This document shows positions 30,647-64,000 of a DNA stretch of 64,000 nt, piece after piece. Both the position numbers and the translations under genes were made by a program. This DNA is from Effrenium voratum (lineage: Eukaryota; Sar; Dinophyceae; Suessiales; Symbiodiniaceae). The notes below the pieces were generated by a model. The model searched no databases. It was not told the DNA's origin and was given only the letters and a program-made list of their open reading frames with translations. Every line of letters starts with the position of its first letter. The first letter of the stretch is position 1. The stretch lies in contig CAUJNA010002779.1 of the NCBI GenBank assembly GCA_963377175.1, positions 1,090,382 through 1,154,381 on the forward strand, in the 5' to 3' direction.

Positions 30647-33600
30647 GGTGGTTTGGTGGTTTGGTTTTTTTAGTGGATTGGTGGATTGGTGGTTTGGTGC
30701 TTTGGTGGTTTGGTGCTTTCGTGCTTTGGTGGTTTGGTGGTTTGGTGCTTTGGTGGTTTGGTGGCTTGGTGCTTTGGTGGTTTGGTGGCTTGGTGCTTTG
30801 GTGCTTTGGTGCTTTGGTGGTTTGGTGGTTTGGTGCTTTGGTGGTTTGGTGCTTTGGTGCTTTGGTGGTTTGGTGCTTTGGTGTTTTTAGTGGATTGGTG
30901 GATTGATGGTTTGGTGCTTTGGTGGTTTGGTGCTTTGGTGCTTTGGTGGTTTGGTGGTTTGGTGTTTTGGTGGTTTGGTGGCTTGGTGCTTTGGTGGTTT
31001 GGTGGTTTGGTGGTTTGGTTTTTTAGTGGATTGGTGGATTGGTGGTTTGGTGCTTTGGTGGTTTGGTGCTTTGGTGCTTTGGTGGTTTGGTGGTTTGGTG
31101 CTTTGGTGGTTTGGTGGCTTGGTGCTTTGGTGGTTTGGTGGTTTGGTGGTTTGGTGCTTTGGTGCTTTGGTGCTTTGGTGGTTTGGTGGTTTGGTGCTTT
31201 GGTGGTTTGGTGCTTTGGTGGTTTGGTGGTTTGGTGGCTTGGTGCTTTGGTGGTTTGGTGGTTTGGTGGTTTGGTGCTTTGGTGATTTGGTGCTTTGGTG
31301 GTTTGGTGGTTTGGTGCTTTGGTGGTTTGGTGCTTTGGTGGTTTGGTGGTTTGGTGCTTTGGTGGTTTGGTGGTTTGGTGGTTTGGCGCTTTGGTGGTTT
31401 GGTGGTTTGGTGGTTTGGTGGTTTGGTGGCTTGGTGCTTTGGTGCTTTGGTGCTTTGGTGGTTTGGTGCTTTGGTGGTTTGGTGCTTTGGTGCTTTGGTG
31501 GTTTGGTGGTTTGGTGGTTTGGTGGTTTGGCGCTTTGGTGGTTTGGTGCTTTGGTGGATTGGTGGTTTGGTGCTTTGGTGCTTTGGTGTTTTGGTGCTTT
31601 GGTGCTTTGGTGGTTTGGTGGTTTGGTGGTTTGGTGCTTTGGTGCTTTGGTGCTTTGGTGGTTTGGTGGTTTGGTGGTTTGGTGCTTTGGTGCTTTGGTG
31701 GTTTGGTGGTTTGGTGCTTGGTGGTTTTGGTGGCTTTGGTGCTTTGGTTTTGGTGCTTTGGTGCTTTGGTGGTTTGGTGGTTTGGTGGTTTGGTGCTTTG
31801 GTGCTTTGGTGCTTTGGTGGTTTGGTGGTTTGGTGGTTTGGTGCTTTGGTGCTTTGGTGGTTTGGTGGTTTGGTGCTTTGGTGGTTTGGTGGTTTGGTGG
31901 TTTGGTGCTTTGGTGCTTTGGTGTTTTGGTGCTTTGGTGCTTTGGTGGTTTGGTGGTTTGGTGGTTTGGTGCTTTGGTGCTTTGGTGCTTTGGTGGTTTG
32001 GTGGTTTGGTGGTTTGGTGCTTTGGTGCTTTGGTGTTTGGTGGTTTGGTGCTTTGGTGGTTTGGTGGTTTGGTGGTTTGGTGCTTTGGTGCTTTGTGTTT
32101 TGGTGCTTTGGTGCTTTGGTGGTTTGGTGGTTTGGTGGTTTGGTGCTTTGGTGGTTTGGTGGTTTGGTGGTTTGGTGGTTTGGCGCTTTGGTGGTTTGGT
32201 GCTTTGGTGGTTTGGTGGTTTGGCGCTTTGGTGGTTTGGTGCTTTGGTGGTTTGGTGGTTTGGTGGTTTGGCGCTTTGGTGGTTTGGTGGTTTGGTGGTT
32301 TGGTGCTTTGGTGCTTTGGTGCTTTGGTGGTTTGGTGCTTTGGTGCTTTGGTGGTTTCCTGGTTTGGTGGTTTGGTGGTTTGGTGGTTTGGTGGTTTGGC
32401 GGTTTGGTGGTTTGGTGGTTTGGTGCTTTGGTGGTTTGGCGGTTTGGTGCTTTGGTGGTTTGGTGCTTTGGTGGTTTGGTGGTTTGGCGCTTTGGTGGTT
32501 TGGCAATTTGGTGGTTTGGTGGTTTGGTGGTTTGGCGCTTTGGTGGTTTGGTGGTTTGGTGGTTTGGTGCTTTGGTGGTTTGGTGGTTTGGTGGTTTGGC
32601 GCTTTGGCGCTTTGGTGGTTTGGTGGTTTGGTGCTTTGGTGGTTTGGTGGTTTGGTGGTTTGGTGGTTTGGTGGTTTGGCGCTTTGGTGGTTTGGTGGTT
32701 TGGTGGTTTGGTGGTTTTGTGCTTTGGTGGTTTGGTGGTTTGGTGGTTTGGTGGTTTGGTGGTTTGGCGCTTTGGTGGTTTGGTGGTTTGGTGGTTTGGT
32801 GGTTTGGTGCTTTGGTGGTTTGGTGGTTTGGTGGTTTGGTGGTTTGGCGCTTTGGTGCTTTGGTGCTTTGGTGGTTTGGTGCTTTGGTTGGTTGGTGGTT
32901 TGGTGGTTTGGTGGTTTGGCGCTTTGGTGGTTTGGTGGTTTGGTGGTTTGGTGCTTTGGTGGTTTGGTGGTTTGGTGGTTTGGTGGTTTGGCGCTTTGGT
33001 GGTTTGGTGCTTTGGTGGTTTGGTGGTTTGGCGCTTTGGTGGTTTGGCGCTTTGGTGGTTTGGTGGTTTGGTGGTTTGGCGCTTTGGTGGTTTGGCGCTT
33101 TGGTGGTTTGGTGGTTTGGTGGTTTGGTGGTTTGGCGCTTTGGTGGTTTGGTGGTTTGGTGCTTTGGTGGTTTGGTGGTTTGGTGGTTTGGTGGTTTGGT
33201 GCTTTGGCGCTTTGGTGGTTTGGGTGTTTGGTGCTTTGGTGGTTTGGTGCTTTGGTGGTTTGGTGGTTTGGTGGTTTGGCGCTTTGGTGGTTTGGTGGTT
33301 TGGTGGTTTGGTGCTTTGGTGGTTTGGTGGTTTGGTGGTTTGGTGGTTTGGTGGTTTGGCGCTTTGGTGGTTTGGTGGTTTGGCGCTTTGGTGGTTTGGT
33401 GGTTTGGTGGTTTGGTGCTTTGGTGGTTTGGTGGTTTGGTGGTTTGGCGCTTTGGTGGTTTGGTGGGTTGGTGGTTTGGTGGTTTGGTGCTTTGGGTGGT
33501 TTGGTGGTTTGGTGGTTTGGTGGTTTGGTGGTTTGGCGCTTTGGCGGTTTGGTGGTTTGGTGGTTTGGTGGTTTGGTGGTGGTGCTTTGGTGGTGGTGGT

Positions 33601-34000
33601 TGGTGGTTTGGTGGTTTGGCGCTTTGGTGGTTTGGTGGTTTGGTGGTTTGGTGGTTTGGTGCTTTGGTGGTTTGGTGGTGGTTTTGGTGGTGTTTGGTGG
33701 TTTGGTGGTTTGGTGGTGGTTTGGTGGTTTGGTGGTTTGGGCGCTTTGGTGGTTTGGTGGTTTGGTGGTTGGTGCTTTGGTGGTTTGGTGGTTTGGTGGT
33801 TTGGTGGTTTGGCGCTTTGGTGGTTTGGTGGTTTGGTGGTTTGGTGGTTTGGTGTTTGGTGGTTTGGTGGTGGTTTGGTGGTTTGGTGGTTTGGCGCTTT
33901 GGTGGTTTGGTGGTTTGGTGGTTTGGTGCTTTGGTGGTTTGGTGGTTTGGTGGTTTGGTGGTTTGGTGGTTTGGCGCTTTGGTGGTTTGGTGGTTTGGTG
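30647..34000. repeat. 3.35-kb minisatellite of a 9-bp unit
   Basis: About 370 copies of three closely related nonamers: GGTGGTTTG, GGTGCTTTG and GGCGCTTTG. Because nine is a multiple of three and no unit contains a stop in any frame, several frames on both strands stay open for over 1000 codons; none is a gene. Left-end units with TTTTTAGTGGATTGGTGG recur near 30667, 30889 and 31021. The GGCGCTTTG form is almost absent before 31380 and common after 32160. It lies in an intron of gene M. Confidence 0.97.
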
Positions 34001-34496
34001 GGGTGGTTTCCCATTTACCCTCTACAACAGCCAACAAATGCCCAAGCCGCCAACCCGAACCACCAATCAACTCCTTTCGGGTGTAAGGGGTGTCCAGGGC
34101 TCAGGTGCAACCTTTCCGAGCTCCGTGAGCTCGGCAGTCATTCTTGGGGGGGGGGCCAAAACCTTCCCATGTCAAAAAGAACACGCCAAACCCTAACAAC
34201 GGAAAAGAGAGAGAGAGAGAAGAAGAAGAAGAAACAAAATATCAGACCCAAGGTGGCAACTGCGTTGCAAACAAATAGAGCGAAAAGAAAAGCACAAACA
34301 AGGGGGAAGGTTTAGACAGCCCACAGTGGAGCCAAACCGCAGACTAAAAACAACCACAATTTGCATTGAGAAGTGGGCAGATTGTCTGCTGCACGTAGAA
34401 AAAACAGGACACCACAAATTTGTGTTGGCTGACATTCACAGCTCGCTGTCCCCAGCCCCAAATGGACCATAGAATCCGGACATACACTGCCCGAAC

Positions 34497-54839: not shown

Positions 54840-55421
54840 CTATTCAGCAACTAGTTCAAAAATGGGCTTCTCCTTGACGTCAGAACTGCTGGGGCGGCTT
54901 GCGGGCAGGTAAGGATCAGCGACTCCAGTAGATTCAGGAGGATCAGCGTCTCGAGAAGTACGCACTGGTTGATGCGGCCGCGATGTTTGACGCGTGCGAT
55001 CCGCAAGTTGCTGGCAGATCCCTGCCTGCAGACGAGTGAGATCCTCAGTAGAGAAGGCCGACGCATCCGAGGATCGCAGAATCGCCTCCAACATCTGCGG
55101 AGACATGCACAGAGTCGATGACTGTGTGGCCACGCTGTGCTGACCAGGGGAAAAAGTCGAAGCGAAGTAGTTGTCTGGTTCGGGAGCCGCGACACGCCTG
55201 TAACCTTCCGTGGTCCAGTCCCGTTTGTACCAAGTAGGAACAGTGGAGTGAACGCCGTCTTGAGAATGAACCTGGTCATAGAACACCTTCCATTCCCTGT
55301 ACGTATGACGTGGAGGAGGGTCATCGCGCTCTTCTTGTAGTGTCCATGCACCTGGATGAAAGATCTTGATCCATTGGGCGTCCGGCCGTTGAGGATCAGG
55401 GCACCATTCTAGCCACGGCAT
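54840..55421 (-). CDS. TYREW/RDW-family ORF, copy A (intact, 193 aa)
   Basis: The best preserved of three related ORFs. It starts MPWLEWCPDP after TTTCTTGCCTGCAG and a 24-base leader, so the start is well supported. Conserved blocks are QWIKIFHPGAW (about 18-28), TYREWKVFY (about 42-50) and TWYKRDWTTEGYRRV (about 63-77). The C-terminal half is Ser/Pro/Arg-rich and probably disordered, with a helical TEDLTRLQAGICQQLAD near the middle. No known domain is recognised. The aromatic, Trp-rich blocks suggest a compact fold conserved among copies A, B and C. Confidence 0.65.
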   Translation of the reverse strand: MPWLEWCPDPQRPDAQWIKIFHPGAWTLQEERDDPPPRHTYREWKVFYDQVHSQDGVHSTVPTWYKRDWTTEGYRRVAAPEPDNYFASTFSPGQHSVATQSSTLCMSPQMLEAILRSSDASAFSTEDLTRLQAGICQQLADRTRQTSRPHQPVRTSRDADPPESTGVADPYLPASRPSSSDVKEKPIFELVAE

Positions 55422-55550
55422 GTTGATTGAACAATGACGCACAAGGCTGCAGGCAAGAAACACTTCATGCCATGTGACGCTGAACATGCCAGTCAAACGC
55501 AAGACCCTCAACCATGCACTCAAGACGCAAGCAACATCAAGTGCAGTGTT

Positions 55551-55990
55551 TTATAGCTGAAGCCAACTCAGGCGCCAACCACCATCTGAAACCGAGGATG
55601 CCGATGAGGATGACAATCCAGCGTACATGAGATCAGGCGATCCCGACGGGAAAACCGGCCGTGCTACGCTCGGGTGTGGATTGCCGAGTCGTTGGTATCC
55701 TCTGGTGTGCCAGTCTCGATATTGCCATGTGTAAAAGGACGCGTAGGAGACCGGCAGCGCAAGGGCGTCCGCCGCTACTTTGAGTACAACATCGTGCGTG
55801 GCCCTGGAAATACAAGAGTCGAATGGATTCGAGTTTACATACCAGGCCCGTGGCAGCCTGTCGCAGAATCCACCTTGGGACCGCTCCGGATGACTCGTCC
55901 ACCTATCGTGAGTGGCGCAAGTTCTACCACTTTGAAGTGTACTGGCCTCGTGACAGCACGAATAAGCCTCTATGAGACAAAAGGAGTCTG
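55551..55990 (-). pseudogene. TYREW/RDW-family ORF, copy B, with internal inversion
   Basis: The minus strand at about 55551-55760 encodes FYTWQYRDWHTRGYQRLG, clearly homologous to copy A, followed by a Ser-rich tail ending SDGGWRLSWLQL. The expected upstream half is missing from the minus strand. It is on the plus strand instead at about 55780-55975: VEWIRVYIPGPW, then in a second plus frame SSTYREWRKFYHF. A segment of roughly 200 bases therefore appears to be inverted in place, with a frame break inside it. An acceptor-like TTTCGCAG near 56000 precedes it. Copy B cannot encode the full protein as it stands. Confidence 0.6.
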
Positions 55991-56696
55991 CGAAAGCACG
56001 GACATGGAGATAGCACAACACAAGACAAGGCAACCCAAGCACAAGCAGCAAGCGAATCGGACCATATTTTCACTCAGAAGGTTCTGTGTCACCTCGTTAC
56101 TGCCGTTGATGACGTGCACATCGGCAATGAAAGTGCCCCGGCTGACGTCGCACGCAAGGAGAAAGACACTTCCGGCCATGGTGTAGAAAAGCATGGCAGT
56201 AATGTTTGCATCTTGTAGTTCTGGACCGTGTAGCACGAGTCGATCGTTTGGGAGTGAACACGGTGAAGGGTCGTCGAGAATAGTGATCCGCTGCAGACGA
56301 GATGGCACTCTTCAATGTGAGCACGTTTCCGAGTGTGCGTGCGGCGCTGAAGATCGTCTGCACTGAGTTGGTCAGTGCTGTGCGCTGATTGTCTTGTGCG
56401 GTCAGAGGATGTAGTAGCCGGGCAGGATTCACCCCGCGGAGATGATGTAGGCGATGCACTGTGGGCACAAACTGCGAGTGGAAGATCTCCGGCGGCGGAG
56501 GCGGTGGTGGGGGTGGAGGAGGTAGAACAAATTGTGGTGATTGTGGTGGTGGTGGCGGTGGCGCCGGCACGCGTAGCGGCATTTCAGCTTGAACACCCAG
56601 TGCACGATCGTGAAGTGAAGGGCCGTGATACTGCAGCCACGTCGGCTGCACTCCATGAGTCCAGGTTATGAACGTCTGAACATTTTGCTCCATCAT
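55970..56696 (-). CDS. Pro-rich ORF D (frame-broken)
   Basis: Starts MMEQNVQTFITWTHGVQPTW after TTGTCATGCAG, a likely trans-splice acceptor. Residues about 45-75 hold two polyproline runs (PPPPPPQ and a run of eleven Pro). The first frame then runs FSAARTLGNVLTLK. The coding signal moves to another frame near 56300: LQRITILDDPSPCSLPNDR then FLLACDVSRGTFIADVHV. That frame runs on without a stop through the next pyrimidine-rich spacer to 55970, so the true end is unclear. The family is not recognised. Confidence 0.45.
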
Positions 56697-56807
56697 GACT
56701 TGATCCCTCAAGACTGCATGACAAGCAAAGCAAGGCAAAGAATCCGACACAACTCACAACACGCAAGAAGATTTTTACGGCACAAGCTCTGCGGAGCTCA
56801 CCGGAGT

Positions 56808-57547
56808 CTAGTTGCGTGCCTCAAGTTGCTGGTAGACCTTCCAGGCATGCTTGACTTCCTCCGCGGTCTTCTGGAGGGAGCGGGCGATAGTCTTGTAGGT
56901 GGGCCTCGCGTCCTTGTCCTTTTTCCGCCTGACCATCTCATCCAACCCCCCTTGCGTCCATGCCGTGAATGGTTCATGGTATGCATTGCGGAGGGCTATC
57001 GTGAACCCTTGCAGAAGTTCACAAGGACCATGCACCACTGTGGGGGACGGGCGAAAAGACGAAGCACCAGGGTGCGGACGGATAGAATGGTCCGAATCAG
57101 AGTCTGGGGGAGAGGTAGGTGTCGTCACGGGTCCACGATCGGTGTGTACCGTGATGGGAGCAGGTACTCTTGGCGGGGGCAGTCGGTCCACGAGAGTGCT
57201 GAGCACACCTCCTCGGCGAGGCTCATGTTCCGCTCCTTGGGCCTGGAACTTCATTACGTTCATCACGAGGGGGCGATAGCTCAGGTATGTACCAGGTCAA
57301 GGATGTGTCCAGAGGCCGAGTCCAGCGGCGTGCGTGACCGGTCTGACGTGATGCGTTCCGTGATGATGCGTGGCCGTAGACAATGCCGCGAATTGCGTGG
57401 CGGTCTGGGCGCCATCCTGGGATCTGATTCTGAGTTCCGATTGACCGCAAGGGCAAAGTTCAAGGTGTCCAGAGATGTCGAAATTTGTGAGGCAAGAACG
57501 TTGAGCACGGCAATCAGGTTGTTCACGAACTCCGGAGAAAGCCACAT
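56808..57547 (-). CDS. Myb/SANT-like ORF E (frame-broken)
   Basis: Starts MWLSPEFVNNLIAVLNVLAS, 45 bases after TTGTCTCGCAG. The first frame stops at 57281 and coding continues in another frame from about 57290 (YLSYRPLVMNVMKFQ) to a stop at 56808. A linker rich in Pro and Ser is followed at the C-terminus by FTAWTQGGLDEMV and then TYKTIARSLQKTAEEVKHAW and KVYQQLEARN. Trp ... Glu ... I-A ... K-T-x-E-x-V-x-x-x-W has the spacing of a Myb/SANT helix-turn-helix, which would suggest DNA binding. That is a resemblance only. Confidence 0.45.
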
Positions 57548-57672
57548 GGCAACCATAAGCAACGCGAGGACAACTCAAGCAAAAGGCAGCTGCGAGACAA
57601 CACAACTTGGGCAAAATGAAGCGCGCACCTGCTGCGTCAAAGAGCTGAGTGTCTTTTACCTGGCACCGAGCT

Positions 57673-58209
57673 TCAGCGGCCTCGGGGTAGTCCGGATGGA
57701 CGACATGCTGACATAGCCTTCACTGCAGGAGGAGCTTTCGGCGCGGCACTGCGATATTCTGATGATAGCATGGGGCCACGACGATTGAGTGGTCGCCTGC
57801 GACGACTGCGGCTCCCAGAGCGGTGCCGATGGGGGTCGCGTCTCCTCGACCGTCTCCTCCTGTTGCGTCCCCTGCAAGCAATGTCACTGACGGGCTCAAT
57901 AAGATCATCATCTTCTGCTAGATTGGTAGACGTGGCTACCAGTGTAGTAGGCATCGATGTGAAGGATGTTCTCGTCGCCAGTGCCTTTGGAGATGTCGGC
58001 GCAGGCGTCGAAGGTGGTGGCAGCGGCGGAAGTACCTTTGGCGCCGTCGGTACTGGAGGTACCACAGCGGGTGCAGCAGGAGGAAGTTGTGGTTGTGGAT
58101 GCCGTTGGTGTCCTTCAAGGCGTTGTAGTCCAGCCACTAGTAAACTGATCTGCGACGAGATGGAGTGTAGTAGGTAACGGCATTCTCGTAAAATGTCACC
58201 GTGATCCAT
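57673..58209 (-). CDS. Arg/Ser-rich ORF F (178 aa, intact)
   Basis: The ATG lies 33 bases after GCGTCACAG. The N-terminal 35 residues (DILRECRYLLHSISSQISLL ...) form a helix with heptad spacing. Next comes a Pro/Ala-rich linker, an acidic AEDDDLIEPVSD and a strongly basic block (RNRRRRSRRRDP, HRSGSRSRRRRP). A coiled coil plus an Arg-rich tail is the layout of many retroelement nucleic-acid-binding (Gag-like) proteins and also of SR-type RNA-binding proteins. The sequence does not decide. A good donor (CCAG|GTAAAA) just after the stop could mean an alternative spliced end. Confidence 0.55.
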   Translation of the reverse strand: MDHGDILRECRYLLHSISSQISLLVAGLQRLEGHQRHPQPQLPPAAPAVVPPVPTAPKVLPPLPPPSTPAPTSPKALATRTSFTSMPTTLVATSTNLAEDDDLIEPVSDIACRGRNRRRRSRRRDPHRHRSGSRSRRRRPLNRRGPMLSSEYRSAAPKAPPAVKAMSACRPSGLPRGR

Positions 58210-58510
58210 GACGGTTGGGGAACAGGCCGGCAATGGCTCTGTGACGCGATCAGGCATAAACCACAATCAATCACAAACTACAGAGGCATCAAGACCCACA
58301 AGCAAGCAAACATGCAAACCTTACAATCACGCAACTCTGCAGGCTGATCGGCACAGGATGGACTTTTCGGAAGAGCAATCCAAGCAGCCGAAAACGTCAT
58401 GATGAATATCACGAAAAGTCAACTGCCACAAACCGCATATTGCTGTTGCATGGGAATCGTCGAGTCAGCGCCTCACCGGCAGGGCTGTCACAAGGTCGTG
58501 CAGGAAATAG

Positions 58511-59923
58511 TCACCACAACATCCCCACGTAGCTGCGGACCGCAATCGATGATCGAAGTTTCCACCCGCCATCTTTGGCGTGAATGCAGTCATAGTAGTG
58601 GGAAGCGGCAATGTCTGCGTACGTGCCGCCGCGTGGAATCATGCAGCGATCCTGGCGCAAGCGTGCCTTTCCTCCGATGCAGAGGGGACGCGGAGAGTGG
58701 ACCCCGGCAAACTGGGCGGCAGACTTCACAGCGGCTTCATTGGAAATGAGGCTCCCTCTGCAATAGAAGCCCATCGGCGGAATCCACACATCGTTCCAGT
58801 TGGTGTACTCGTCGTTGGGAGATGGATGCTGCTGCCATTTCGAAGGTCGGATGAGCTCCTCGTCTTTCAAGATGCCAATGGCGGAATTGATGTCGGTGTT
58901 GTGCGCCCAAAAGAACGGCGAGATCGACTGAGTGCGAAAGTTATCCGGTAGCTTGCGGCGCGGCTCAAAGGAGAAGATGATCCCATAGCGATTGTTCCGA
59001 GAATCCTTTTTGCCTGGCTGGAAACGGTAGTATGTCCTCGGGGTCTTCTGGATGTACGGCCAGCACTTTTCCAGGACGCCCAACTGAACAATGAGTTGCT
59101 CAGGCAAATTGTCGAAAAATCCCGGGAGATCTCACGGATGACCTCCGTGGTCCAAGCTCCTGGGTTGCCATGCGGGAGTCTCTCTGCTGTCAGCTCCGAG
59201 ACAGATCTCACTCTGTGCTCATCCCGGATGATATTATCACGGTGCGGCATGAGGCTCCGGCACACTGTCTCCCAAGACTGCTTCCATTTGGATGCGTCCA
59301 ACTCGGCAATGCAAGGAAGGGTGTAGTACAAGACATCGTTGATGCGTATGGCAATTTCCTCAACCTGAAAGCCCGAGCAAAGCACGAAGTGATGGCTGCC
59401 CAGTGATGGTGCCGGAGCGCGAACACGAAGCTGAATGAGGTCAACCGTGTGCGTCGGATGGTCGCTCCTGCTGTTCGAAGCGGCAGCATGGCGTTCTGGT
59501 GGCGCTGATGGCGACCGAGGTCGCCTACGGTCCTCATGACTCCGGCGACCACTATGTGTCCATTCGCCCCAGTCACCATCATCTTCGGATTTGCCATGAG
59601 ATCCAGGGGTAAGCCTAACCCGAGATCGGCGAGGCACTGCGTGGGGAGCGTGAGCGCATGTCTGTTGGCCGGTCTTGCATCGCATGGGCGGTGCGCGAGG
59701 AGCTGTGGCTCTGAACATTTCGTAGATGCACCATGCCGTGCGTCTGCACGAAAAGCTGCACCTCATTGCCGTTGATGAAGCTAGGGAACTGGTCCAAGGT
59801 GACCTGACTGGTGGTCTGGACTGTCCCATCCGGGCGCAATAGGCTGCTCACCGTGTAGACTGCATGAGTGGACCGTATAGTCGAGTCAGCAACCTCAAGC
59901 TGAATGGGATGCACCGACGCCAT
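58511..59923 (-). CDS. ORF G, possible ADP-ribosyltransferase-like region (frame-broken)
   Basis: Starts MASVHPIQLEVADSTIRSTH. It continues to SRSPRSASP, where the frame changes (about 59640), then through an Arg/Ser-rich part and FQVEEIAIRINDVLYYTLPC to TTEVIREISRD. A second frame change lies in a run of five A (59105-59109), where six would keep frame. The last part holds FFWAHNTDINSAIGILKDEE, a GFYCRGSL block and GGTYADIAASHYYD, ending VGMLW. An 'H-x-T ... A-I-x-I-L-x-x-x-x-I-R-P-S ... G-F-Y' order is seen in some ADP-ribosyltransferase folds. This is a weak resemblance; no catalytic Glu is assigned. Confidence 0.45.
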
Positions 59924-60089
59924 GCCAATAGAAGGATAAGCACAGACAAACAAACAACCATAAAGTCCGAGCCAGCTCCAAACCATGCACACATGCACAC
60001 AATCACACATGAGCAAACGCAAGTGAGCAAAGACACCAACAATGCAAATCGGATCAACATGCTCATTTGGTTCCACTCTTCGGCGAATC

Positions 60090-62905
60090 TCAACAAATCC
60101 GGGTTGAAGCCTTTGGCTTCATAAAGACGTTTGAGGGCATCGAGACGCACTTGTTGTTGGATTGCTGGTTGAGCTCCACGCACAATGGGCCACGATCTGG
60201 ATGACCACGAGGAGTAAGTAAACATCTGATCATTGGCGCTTCGAATACTTTGATCTGAGACGGATGATCGGGCAGATGTGGTGTGATAGTCCTGGAGGCT
60301 GAATCACACATGTACCCAAGCACTTTGGTGACTGGAGGACGATAAAATTCCAGTGACAGAAAGTTCCGAAGGACTGCTGACGAAGGCGCTGCATCCCGCA
60401 AAAGTATGAAGCGATTGTCGACATAGCGCTCGTGCCAGATCACACCAAAGTCTGGCAGTTGAAACCTAAGCGTATCCATGGTCTGAATGCACAAATTGTC
60501 CTCAACCGTAGCAACGAGATTGCACAGAGGAGGAGCAGCCGGGGATCCCATTGCAACGCCTCGTTCCTGCCTGAACAAGTAGCCATTGATCTCGAAGTGG
60601 CTGTTGTCGATGACGAAGTCGAGGAGACACTGTAGGTCTTCTTCGACGGCGCCATTTTCCTTTAAACATGCGTCGCCGATGATCAGACTTCACTTCATAG
60701 ACCGACCAGTGTGATGCGTTGCGTAGACCCACCACCTGATCATAGCGATGAAGTAGAACCTGGAGAGCTTGGTGACAACGTTCCGTGGGACTTGACGTGA
60801 AGAAACCGGACAGGTCTTGTGACACCAACTGTATATACTCCGTAGGGTCTGCGGACGACAGCGCATCCCAGAGTTGTTGCACCAGCTCCTGAACCGAAAG
60901 CTGACCCGGAACGTCCGGAAAGGTGATCTTGGTGAGCTCAAAGATGAGGGCGCCGAAGGCCGTGAGAAGAGGTGCAGCCCACGTGCGAAGAAAGAAATGA
61001 TTAGTCTCGCTTTGAGCCAGTCTTTGGTCGGTTTGGGCAGAATGCGAGCGGTGGGAAGGGGTGCATGAAGTCGTAGTCCCCATGCATAGCGGTGTTGTAA
61101 TCAAGAAGGTATCATAGTCACGACTTCGGCACGAAAGGATGCGGCAGACTCGCGGCATAATGCAAATACTTCTCCTGCGCAAAAGGTCTTGCGCAACAGA
61201 GTGGAAAACAAAGTTGGGCAGATCACATGAGCACGCGAAGGGAGATGATCCGCTGGAATGACAACCCACGTCGTCAGGGCACGAGTCGTGTGCTGCAATG
61301 ACTCTGAGGTCCAGTGAGCCTGGTCTTGGACATTGGAGCGATGTTCAGCAAACAACTCCGCCAGAATGGGTTGGGAATCAGCATTAAAGCTGGACCCTTG
61401 TACCTTCCATCAGCGAGCCAGTTTGCGAAGCTGCATCTCAAAACGTTGCTGAAGTTTGTCCACATCGCCAAAATATTGATCCTTCATGGATGCAGTCATG
61501 ATGTCGGAATCAATGTCAGTGTTGATACATCGAAACTCATCCAAGATCACAGCATGAGAATGTGCACGAAAAGTGGCACGGTCATCCACGTCAATGCAGC
61601 GGCACAGGAAAGAAGTGTCCGGAGCCCATCTTCGTTGCCATTTGCGGTAGTTGTAGATGCGGTCACCCAAGGTGGCACTGCGAGTTTCAACGACTCGGAT
61701 CTTAGGAAGGAATGAAGGGAAAAGACCACGATGAGATGCCACCCGCCGTTGCAACCAGGTTCCGAGTTTGACTTTCCAGTCTCGAACATGTAGAGGTGGA
61801 AGTAGTAATTGTGTCATGGTGGTTGGGACCTGGAGTTCTCGCTTGTGCAAGACCTGGGTAAGAAGCTTCTGAGCCTTGGAGCGGAACGGCTCGTTGACAA
61901 AGGAGGAGAGCCGCAGGAAATAGTAAAGTTGAGTCGAAGGGAAAGCCGCCGATAAAAGATCACGCATGGTTTGAAACGACGCACCTGTTTTAAATCCCAG
62001 CCGATACAAAGTAGAATAGAGTGCCTGGATGTCGTCCAGCATCTCAGGCCGCAGTTGACGATGTAGATCGGGATGCAGTCGCCGCCGAAACCGCTTGTGA
62101 AGGGATAATGACGTAGGCGATGATAGCGAATGACGTCTGAAGTCAACCAGATGTTCACGGAAGCCAATTTCCCGAAGAAGTCTGTGTATCCAGGGTGCAT
62201 TTAAATGCGGGCGCAGCATGTACTGCCATTTGCTTTCTTGGACCCACAACGAGAAAGTGAGAAGCCTGATCTCGATCGGAACAGCACAGAACAGCCAGTA
62301 ATTGTTGGATCTCTTCCAATAATGAAGCGCTGGTTCAAAGAAAGCATGTTGCCCCCGCAGGGGTTGGAGATATTTGCGGCAACGGGAGGCTCCCTGCGTA
62401 GAACATCCTGATCTGTAGCTCCAATGTAGCATGGGCTGTGCCATGACGAAGGCCTGATGTAGACGCAAGGCTGCTGATGATGTCCCGGATCTTGAATGAA
62501 GTCACACAGGTCTGGAAGGCGAGCACGTAGCGATTTGAGGTGCCTCATATCAGCGAAAGTGGAGTGCACATGACTTCACAAAGCAGTGACGTCTTGTAGA
62601 AGTGAAGGACTTCAAAGAACGGAGGTATGTACCCATGGTCCTGTGAAATGAGTCGCTGTAAACAGCAAATCAGGACATACGATGTGATCCGGCATCTGTG
62701 GATCTCATGTAATATACCTATTGGCCACCGCGTGTCGGGTATGTGACATGGCAGTCGTCGGAATCTGAAGAGCAATGCGAACCAGGGTGAGCACCTCCAA
62801 AATGAGGCGCAACTGAGGTAATTGCAGAATCGATTCATACTCATCAGGAGGTGCTGTTGGTAGTGGAAGTCCAGACCGCCAGCATGCTGAGAAAAACGTC
62901 GTCAT
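60090..62905 (-). CDS. GIY-YIG endonuclease + reverse transcriptase, frame-broken
   Basis: Retroelement protein read in pieces. The first ATG (62905) is ten bases after TTCAACGCAG. An N-terminal GIY-YIG nuclease at about 62470-62200 shows CVYIRPSSW, CYIGATDQDVLRRE and, in the next frame, QESKWQYMLRPHLNAPW with the usual Arg, Glu and Asn. After about 300 residues without a known domain comes the RT at about 60900-60200: motif A SQDLSGFFTS, then EVKSDHRRRMFKG, motif B QERGVAMGSPAAPPLCNL and motif C RYVDNRFILL, where the second Asp of YxDD is Asn. A C-terminal piece (VRLDALKRLYEAKGFNPDLL) lies in another frame near 60150. At least six frame changes occur, near 62700, 62570, 62400, 61420, 61110, 60660 and 60220. 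Nuclease before RT matches the permuted Penelope-like elements (Naiad/Chlamys type) rather than classical Penelope. It is probably inactive as assembled. Confidence 0.7.
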
Positions 62906-63121
62906 CGAAGATCCCGCTGCGTTGAAGCTCAGTCCACATGATGCATCTCTGGTCAATTGCGGCTACAAGGTGGCAGCGACATGTATGTCCCAGACAAGTG
63001 CAGTGACGAACAACTCACAAGTCATGACAAGCACACATGTCAAAGGCATACAAGTTTTCAAGCGCAAATCACGACGCAACAAAGTTGCCACTCCGGGCTC
63101 ATACTGACAAGGAAAAGCACT
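62906..63121. other. Spacer with trans-splice-acceptor-like tract
   Basis: 216 bases, pyrimidine-rich on the minus strand, ending in CTTCAACGCAG ten bases before the ATG of the nuclease-RT ORF. Similar pyrimidine-AG spacers of 50-300 bases precede the other ORFs of the array (near 54707, 55440, 56720, 57590 and 58240). They suggest separately trans-spliced units, though cis introns are not excluded. Confidence 0.5.
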
Positions 63122-64000
63122 TCATCCGGTAAGAAGTCGAGCTACCACAATGAGCAGACACAGCGCCTTGTCCGAGAGCTTGGTGATGTAGCCTGGCTCT
63201 AGTCCCCACAAAGAAGCCATTGAAGCAAACGTGGGAGCATCACCTTTTGGCAAACGTTGACGCGCTTGCAGGAGCTGAACTGTTATGGGATCCAGAGACT
63301 TGTTGCCGTTGAGACGGGCGGGATGGTTGGCCCACTTGATCAACGACGGCATGGTAGTAGTAGTGGGGGTCTGCTTGAGGTAGACGTGCGGCTGATCACT
63401 GGTCCAGGAGTAGTGCTTGATGATGTCTTCAGGCGTGCTGTGCATCGTGAGCAACTTCGATGTTGTCTGCTTGGCAGGCGGGGGCGACATGCCGTGAAGA
63501 GATTGGATAATCCGAGGCTGTTGCTGAGGTGGAACATCGAATGACTTGCCGTCGAGAGCTGCCGCACTCACCGTGGGCAGAGAACTGGTGGGAGTCGAAG
63601 ACTGCGAGTGATTGACCGGAGGTGGTGTGACCAGCTCCGCATCATCTTTATGGGCAGCCATCGTAGAGGGAGGCGACGATCTCTGTGATGCCGAGCGCTG
63701 CGCCTGGAGCAGCTCATGCTCACGTTTAAGGTTGTGATACTTCTGCAGTGTCATCTTCCGGAGAGTGGGGCTTGAGGGTCTGATGATGTTGTTGAAGAAA
63801 CTGAAGCACAAGATTGCCCAAGTGCTCGTGGACCTTGATCCGCTGATTGAAGTCATCAATGTTGAGCCCCATCAAGTTTGCCAAGTCTCTCTCCAAAGTG
63901 AACAAGTGCTCCAAAGCAAGGCCTCGGTGCGCGTGCGAAATCCTTCCCACGTCACAAATCGTCCGTGAGCAAACGGCCTCAGTAGCCAGTTGGAAATGCC
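63122..64000 (-). CDS. Coiled-coil ORF, 5' end beyond window (frame-broken)
   Basis: Read from the window edge: RFVTWEGFRTRTEALLW in one frame, then ANLMGLNIDDFNQRIKVHEH and NLVLQFLQQHHQTLKP in a second, then MTLQKYHNLKREHELLQAQ in a third to a stop at 63122. The middle has two helical stretches. The C-terminal part is Pro/Gln/Thr-rich and then PSLIKWANHPARLNGNKSLD ... WGLEPGYITKLSDKALCLL. It lies directly upstream of the nuclease-RT ORF in the same direction, the place of an upstream Gag-like ORF, but no Gag motif is visible. Confidence 0.45.

Follow-up and report, generated by a model that had tools for sequence, protein, structure and literature searches.

Background

The closest described systems are the Naiad and Chlamys groups of Penelope-like elements (PLEs), which, in the account of Craig et al. 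from 2021, reportedly combine an N-terminal GIY-YIG nuclease and a reverse transcriptase (RT) that has a fingers insertion (IFD), the two being joined by a short domain in which a CxC motif occurs. Nuclease-first PLEs are also said to lack the canonical hammerhead, and the Chlamys nuclease to lack the CCHH. We know of no GIY-YIG nuclease in telomerase reverse transcriptase (TERT). Here, we describe a locus of the dinoflagellate Effrenium voratum within a stretch of 64,000 nucleotides (assembly GCA_963377175.1, contig CAUJNA010002779.1, positions 1,090,382 to 1,154,381), referred to below as the window. We read the window as holding a dead retroelement of the telomerase/Penelope type from a dinoflagellate, placed best as a deep relative, within the alveolates, of the nuclease-first PLEs, and give this reading a probability of roughly two in three. 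Its layout is that of one protein, in which a GIY-YIG nuclease is followed by a long linker, with a CxC motif, a DKG-like hairpin and an apparently TERT-like front, and then by the RT.

Among known eukaryotic enzymes, the RTs of PLEs are described as the nearest kin of telomerase (PMC12632851); how the two are related is a question to which a divergent member whose front resembles TERT is relevant. A 2025 study of Ectocarpus states that, until its own discovery of a Chlamys-type element, PLEs had gone unreported in the TSAR supergroup (PMC12477816); an abundant lineage in the alveolates would therefore extend the known range of these elements. In the literature searched, with subscription journals largely outside its scope, no description of dinoflagellate PLEs was found. 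We regard the family described below as a new form of PLE-type element, with a real chance that it makes up a separate telomerase/Penelope branch.

A Dead Copy and Its Relatives

A read-through query assembled from fragments of open reading frames (ORFs) in the window retrieved 39 proteins, and searching again with three aligned relatives extended these to a family of 71 proteins. The best relative, P0001, has 1039 amino acids (aa), heads a cluster of 241 sequences and is 76% identical to the query over 99% of its length; nuclease block, linker, and RT lie within its single reading frame. P0038 and P0039, which are distant from the query at 24 and 26% identity, respectively, have nuclease, linker, and RT in the same order. 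Only three of the 71 proteins carry an organism name, and all three are from Symbiodinium (two from S. microadriaticum, a dinophyte of the Alveolata, and one from S. necroappetens), which bears out the dinoflagellate setting proposed in the initial annotation. No relatives of the family were found in viral contigs, none of the PLE query in viral and genome contigs, and none of the family in PHROGs (three proteins searched, E ≤ 0.1).

Against the window, P0001 aligns by tblastn in five minus-strand pieces that together cover 60,088-62,947, with 54-81% identity and E-values from 0.0 to 6e-46. The pieces lie in alternating frames and include four frame changes and five stops, because of which the window copy must be dead: it is a remnant of one long minus-strand coding sequence at 62.95-60.09 kb. 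The mechanically called ORFs of this copy are fragments in differing frames, and eight raw ORF pieces matched neither an RT nor a GIY-YIG family in Pfam, so that its motifs can be confirmed only through the relatives. A reversed-window control with nine family queries, run with the low-complexity filter on where the forward search had it off, gave one match at E ≤ 1 (E 0.38) and rules out a chance origin of the motif strings. The nuclease blocks and RT motifs A, B, and C were all located on the minus strand, with the nuclease upstream in transcription, as had been annotated. The limits once given for the element (60,090-62,905) do hold these motifs but prove too narrow, since homology reaches 63.12 kb upstream, where 62,966-63,121 (minus strand) matches residues 1-29 of P0006 (72% over 29 aa, E 4.8e-8), and 58.51 kb downstream.

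The Nuclease and the Linker

The nuclease core of the window copy lies at 62,193-62,467 (minus strand), as placed by motif coordinates, invariant residues, and the fold match of the equivalent part of P0001. It comprises the block VYI...YIG...RRE at 62,390-62,467 and, in a different frame, the block QESKWQ...LNAP at 62,193-62,240. Throughout this work, counts of motifs and spacings rest on custom search patterns. A YIG-like block and RT motif C are both present in 28 of the 71 family proteins, and the nuclease comes first in all 28, in line with the order originally proposed; in 26 of the 71, YIG, LNxP, motif A, and motif C follow one another in that order within a single frame. As a control, 120 canonical PLE proteins were treated likewise, and the nuclease follows the RT in 112 of the 113 that have both parts.

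The earlier assignment of this block to GIY-YIG stands by fold and fails by hidden Markov model. A fold search with the predicted structure of the P0001 nuclease matched I-TevI, which supports GIY-YIG, and the core residues are invariant in the family, so that both the fold and the catalytic residues by which the superfamily is defined were found. The Pfam model PF01541 matched none of 27 family proteins (E ≤ 1) and none of 12 slices (E ≤ 10); the same model matched just one of five canonical PLE proteins at E ≤ 0.01. Pfam and NCBIfam searches of the relatives matched the RT and left GIY-YIG unmatched, with one slice touching DUF123 at E 0.061, and a sequence search of the PDB with the family returned nothing relevant. 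Between the blocks GIY and YIG, a Cys pair, the part of CCHH that was scored, occurs in 0 of 46 family proteins, compared to 104 of 118 canonical PLEs. Three Symbiodinium proteins, P0060, P0062, and P0063, have long N-terminal extensions ahead of the nuclease, which perhaps stem from the fusion of gene models or represent an additional ORF of the element.

The linker spans 61,014-62,192 (minus strand), within the tblastn piece 62,426-60,987. It had been put at about 300 unexplained residues; the distance from LNxP to motif A is in fact about 460 residues (385-468 in 17 of the 18 proteins with CxC, 327 in P0007), and the linker is no longer wholly unexplained, as its C-terminal part falls in a TERT-aligned stretch and it contains a CxC motif and a DKG-like hairpin. 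The CxC lies 193-202 residues past LNxP in 18 of 28 family proteins and is present in the window copy as CRC at 61,596-61,604, inside FLCRCIDVDD (61,581-61,610; minus strand). The ten relatives without it are P0063 and nine with a shortened linker. These nine (P0049-P0056 and P0058) are near-identical, their linker is shorter by about 64 residues, and they are perhaps copies of one deletion derivative. In the predicted structure of P0001, the TERT-aligned stretch ahead of the RT runs from residue 451 onward; the corresponding minus-strand part of the window lies below roughly 61.7 kb, an approximate position placed by eye on P0001. The DKG-like hairpin, WVVIPADHLPSRAHVICP, at 61,215-61,268 (minus strand), stands in the alignment column of the PLE PADKG. 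All 13 family rows have its Asp; the next residue is His in 12 of them and Lys in the other, and the PLE rows of the same alignment have DKG in 19 of 19.

The Reverse Transcriptase

In the window copy, the minus strand carries the RT motif 2 region (KARLIISF) at 60,990-61,013, motif A (SQDLSGFFTSSP) at 60,787-60,822, motif B (RGVAMGSPAAPP) at 60,528-60,563, and motif C (RYVDNRF, with Asp-Asn in place of Asp-Asp) at 60,408-60,428. This Asp-Asn falls within the stretch first annotated, where it drew no comment. The first Asp of motif A stands in a column common to TERT, PLE, and group II.

A family RT profile was built from 18 of the 71 proteins, and the canonical PLE set from 120 proteins, reduced to the 101 in which motif C was usable and, once redundant sequences were removed, to 94. 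In profile-profile comparison, the canonical PLE profile was nearest to the family (E 1.3e-14 over 237 columns), followed by TERT (7.3e-5) and group II (4.4e-3), which agrees with the PLE-type RT named in the initial annotation; the reversed family profile scored E 0.041 against PLE. In a depth control in which the PLE profile alone was down-sampled, its two-sequence versions (57.9-103.5) beat the two-sequence TERT profile (43.0) in 20 of 20 draws. In fold searches, TERT structures come out ahead of those of group II, R2, and LINE-1, and TERT gives the best matches to the predicted model, which take in the RT, the thumb, and some of the sequence preceding them. The NCBIfam matches of the relatives are to a group II RT model (best E 5.5e-7).

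A maximum-likelihood (ML) tree was computed from 13 of the 18 family proteins, 19 of the 94 PLEs, two TERTs, and three group II RTs. It groups the family at 99/97, and partnerships of the family with TERT, PLE, or group II are all compatible with the data. The tree is of little weight either way because so few TERT and group II sequences enter it and its deep branches are long. The spacing between motifs A and B is 89-99 residues in 33 of 35 family proteins and 54-55 in the other two. Of 94 canonical PLEs, 93 have 64 residues here, and the figure is 118 for human TERT, 54 for Tribolium TERT, and 50 for group II. The extra residues of the family may be a candidate RT fingers insertion.

The motif C sequence RYxDN occurs in 41 of the 71 family proteins and RYxDD in none. 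The remaining 30 have neither and look truncated, since motif B is missing from all of them as well. Canonical PLEs have DD in 115 of 120 proteins and DN in one. TERT, PLE, and group II share the column in which the first Asp of the family motif C stands, and the Asn occupies the column after it. Because this Asp-Asn is shared by P0001 and P0039, which are only 26% identical, it is an old and conserved trait. A family-wide Asn at this position makes the need for the second Asp testable in a natural RT.

Downstream Reading Frame and Flanking Sequence

A conserved downstream ORF is preserved as a remnant at 58,514-59,854 (minus strand), delimited by its match to P0036 and with its start set at the block SLLRPDG. 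P0036, in which RT and downstream ORF are fused in one frame, is 78% identical to 58,514-59,110 over 199 aa, and a weaker piece (45%) reaches 60,252 and takes in the end of the RT. By eye, the RT also continues into the downstream ORF in P0004, P0030, P0032, and P0037. No Pfam family was matched by the longest piece of this ORF in the window, and P0036 matched no PHROG and only one NCBIfam model, within the RT.

Further stretches of the window drew attention. An open stretch of 249 aa with a coding look at 63,125-63,871 (minus strand) may belong to the element as its first ORF or be a gene unrelated to it; by eye, this upstream ORF (63.12-63.87 kb) resembled the sequence that extends P0060 and P0062 at the N-terminus, but BLAST gave no match at E 0.05. 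More ORF-like stretches in the same direction lie at 54,843-58,266 (minus strand), and the element could be larger, with several ORFs. A short repeat common to the ORFs at 54.8-55.6 and 55.6-56.1 kb was weak (25 aa, E 6e-4) and is not claimed. No long direct repeats were found at 56-64 kb, and the element may extend past the window edge. A search of the whole window against Rfam (E ≤ 5) gave 19 matches, with no hammerhead among them. Elsewhere, at 30,673-34,193, there is a long low-complexity repeat tract with several frames open on both strands and an extreme strand skew at 32-34 kb.

Proposed Mechanism and Alternative Explanations

A kinship with the nuclease-first PLEs is proposed from the observed domain order, the predicted folds, the conserved residues, and the nearest profile relatives. 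For intact copies, we infer cutting, RNA binding, catalysis, and mobility by analogy with one canonical PLE, for which an in vitro study reports that the nuclease cuts DNA and the RT starts internally on RNA (PMC11167929). Most probably, the nuclease would open chromosomal target DNA, the middle region or TERT-like front would hold the element RNA, and the RT would prime from the opened DNA end, in target-primed reverse transcription, and would do so with Asp-Asn as the motif C of its active site.

Several points weigh against this assignment. GIY-YIG is invisible to every sequence profile used, and the Foldseek E-values for it are modest, the best being 3.8e-3. The best ML tree joins the family to TERT at 65/20, and pairing with PLE (p 0.445) and pairing with group II (p 0.396) both survive an approximately unbiased test. 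The family linker is long against the reportedly short one of Naiad and Chlamys, with which the family is compared here by described traits alone. Finally, no element ends, pseudo-long terminal repeats, or target duplications were found for the window copy. The odds attached here to all readings are judgements.

It is possible, though we doubt it, that the family forms a third branch beside TERT and PLE in the alveolates, whose GIY-YIG was gained independently of Naiad and Chlamys. Such an element would work in the same way, as a mobile element with GIY-YIG ahead of a telomerase-type RNA-binding front and an RT polymerising with an Asp-Asn motif C, and would represent a surviving link between telomerase and retrotransposons. 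The deep position left unsettled by the tree, with TERT as partner in its best version, is consistent with this, as are the TERT fold match that reaches ahead of the RT, the invariant Asp-Asn motif C, and the wide motif A-B spacing (33/35 family proteins, against 64 residues in 93/94 canonical PLEs). However, the profile scores prefer PLE to TERT in all 20 depth-matched draws, and the nuclease-first order, the CxC, and the nuclease without Cys pair fit Chlamys as described.

It is improbable that the RT is catalytically dead or host-adopted, with Asn for a catalytic Asp and genes serving another purpose. The prevalence of RYxDN (41/71) and the lack of any RYxDD would suit such a fate, but the large clusters of copies, the retention of the motif A Asp and the first motif C Asp in shared columns, and the decay of the window copy, which resembles transposon wreckage, argue against it. 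A group II-like or LINE-type RT merely adjoining nuclease-like letters, to which the NCBIfam matches and the surviving group II partnership in the test of topologies might point, can be dismissed almost entirely, as nuclease and RT share one frame in many relatives, the nuclease matches the I-TevI fold, TERT structures outrank group II, R2, and LINE-1, and group II has the weakest of the three profile scores.

Comparison with Known Elements

Placed as a deep relative of the nuclease-first PLEs, the family can be compared with three known systems. Its best structural matches are to TERT and extend over RT and thumb into part of what precedes them; it differs from TERT in that the TERT profile is farther from it than that of PLE and in motif C, which is VDD in the two TERTs compared. 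With canonical PLEs it shares the nearest RT profile, an apparent DKG-like hairpin in the same column, and a GIY-YIG nuclease, whereas theirs follows the RT (112/113) and carries the Cys pair (104/118), and they have DD in motif C (115/120) and 64 residues between motifs A and B (93/94). From Naiad and Chlamys it is set apart by a linker of about 460 residues, where theirs is reportedly short, by the RYxDN motif C, and by the change of the DKG Lys to His in 12 of 13 rows. It is like them in having GIY-YIG ahead of a PLE/TERT-type RT in one protein and, going by the traits described for them, in the linker CxC, in a window where no hammerhead was found, and, as in Chlamys, in a nuclease free of the Cys pair.
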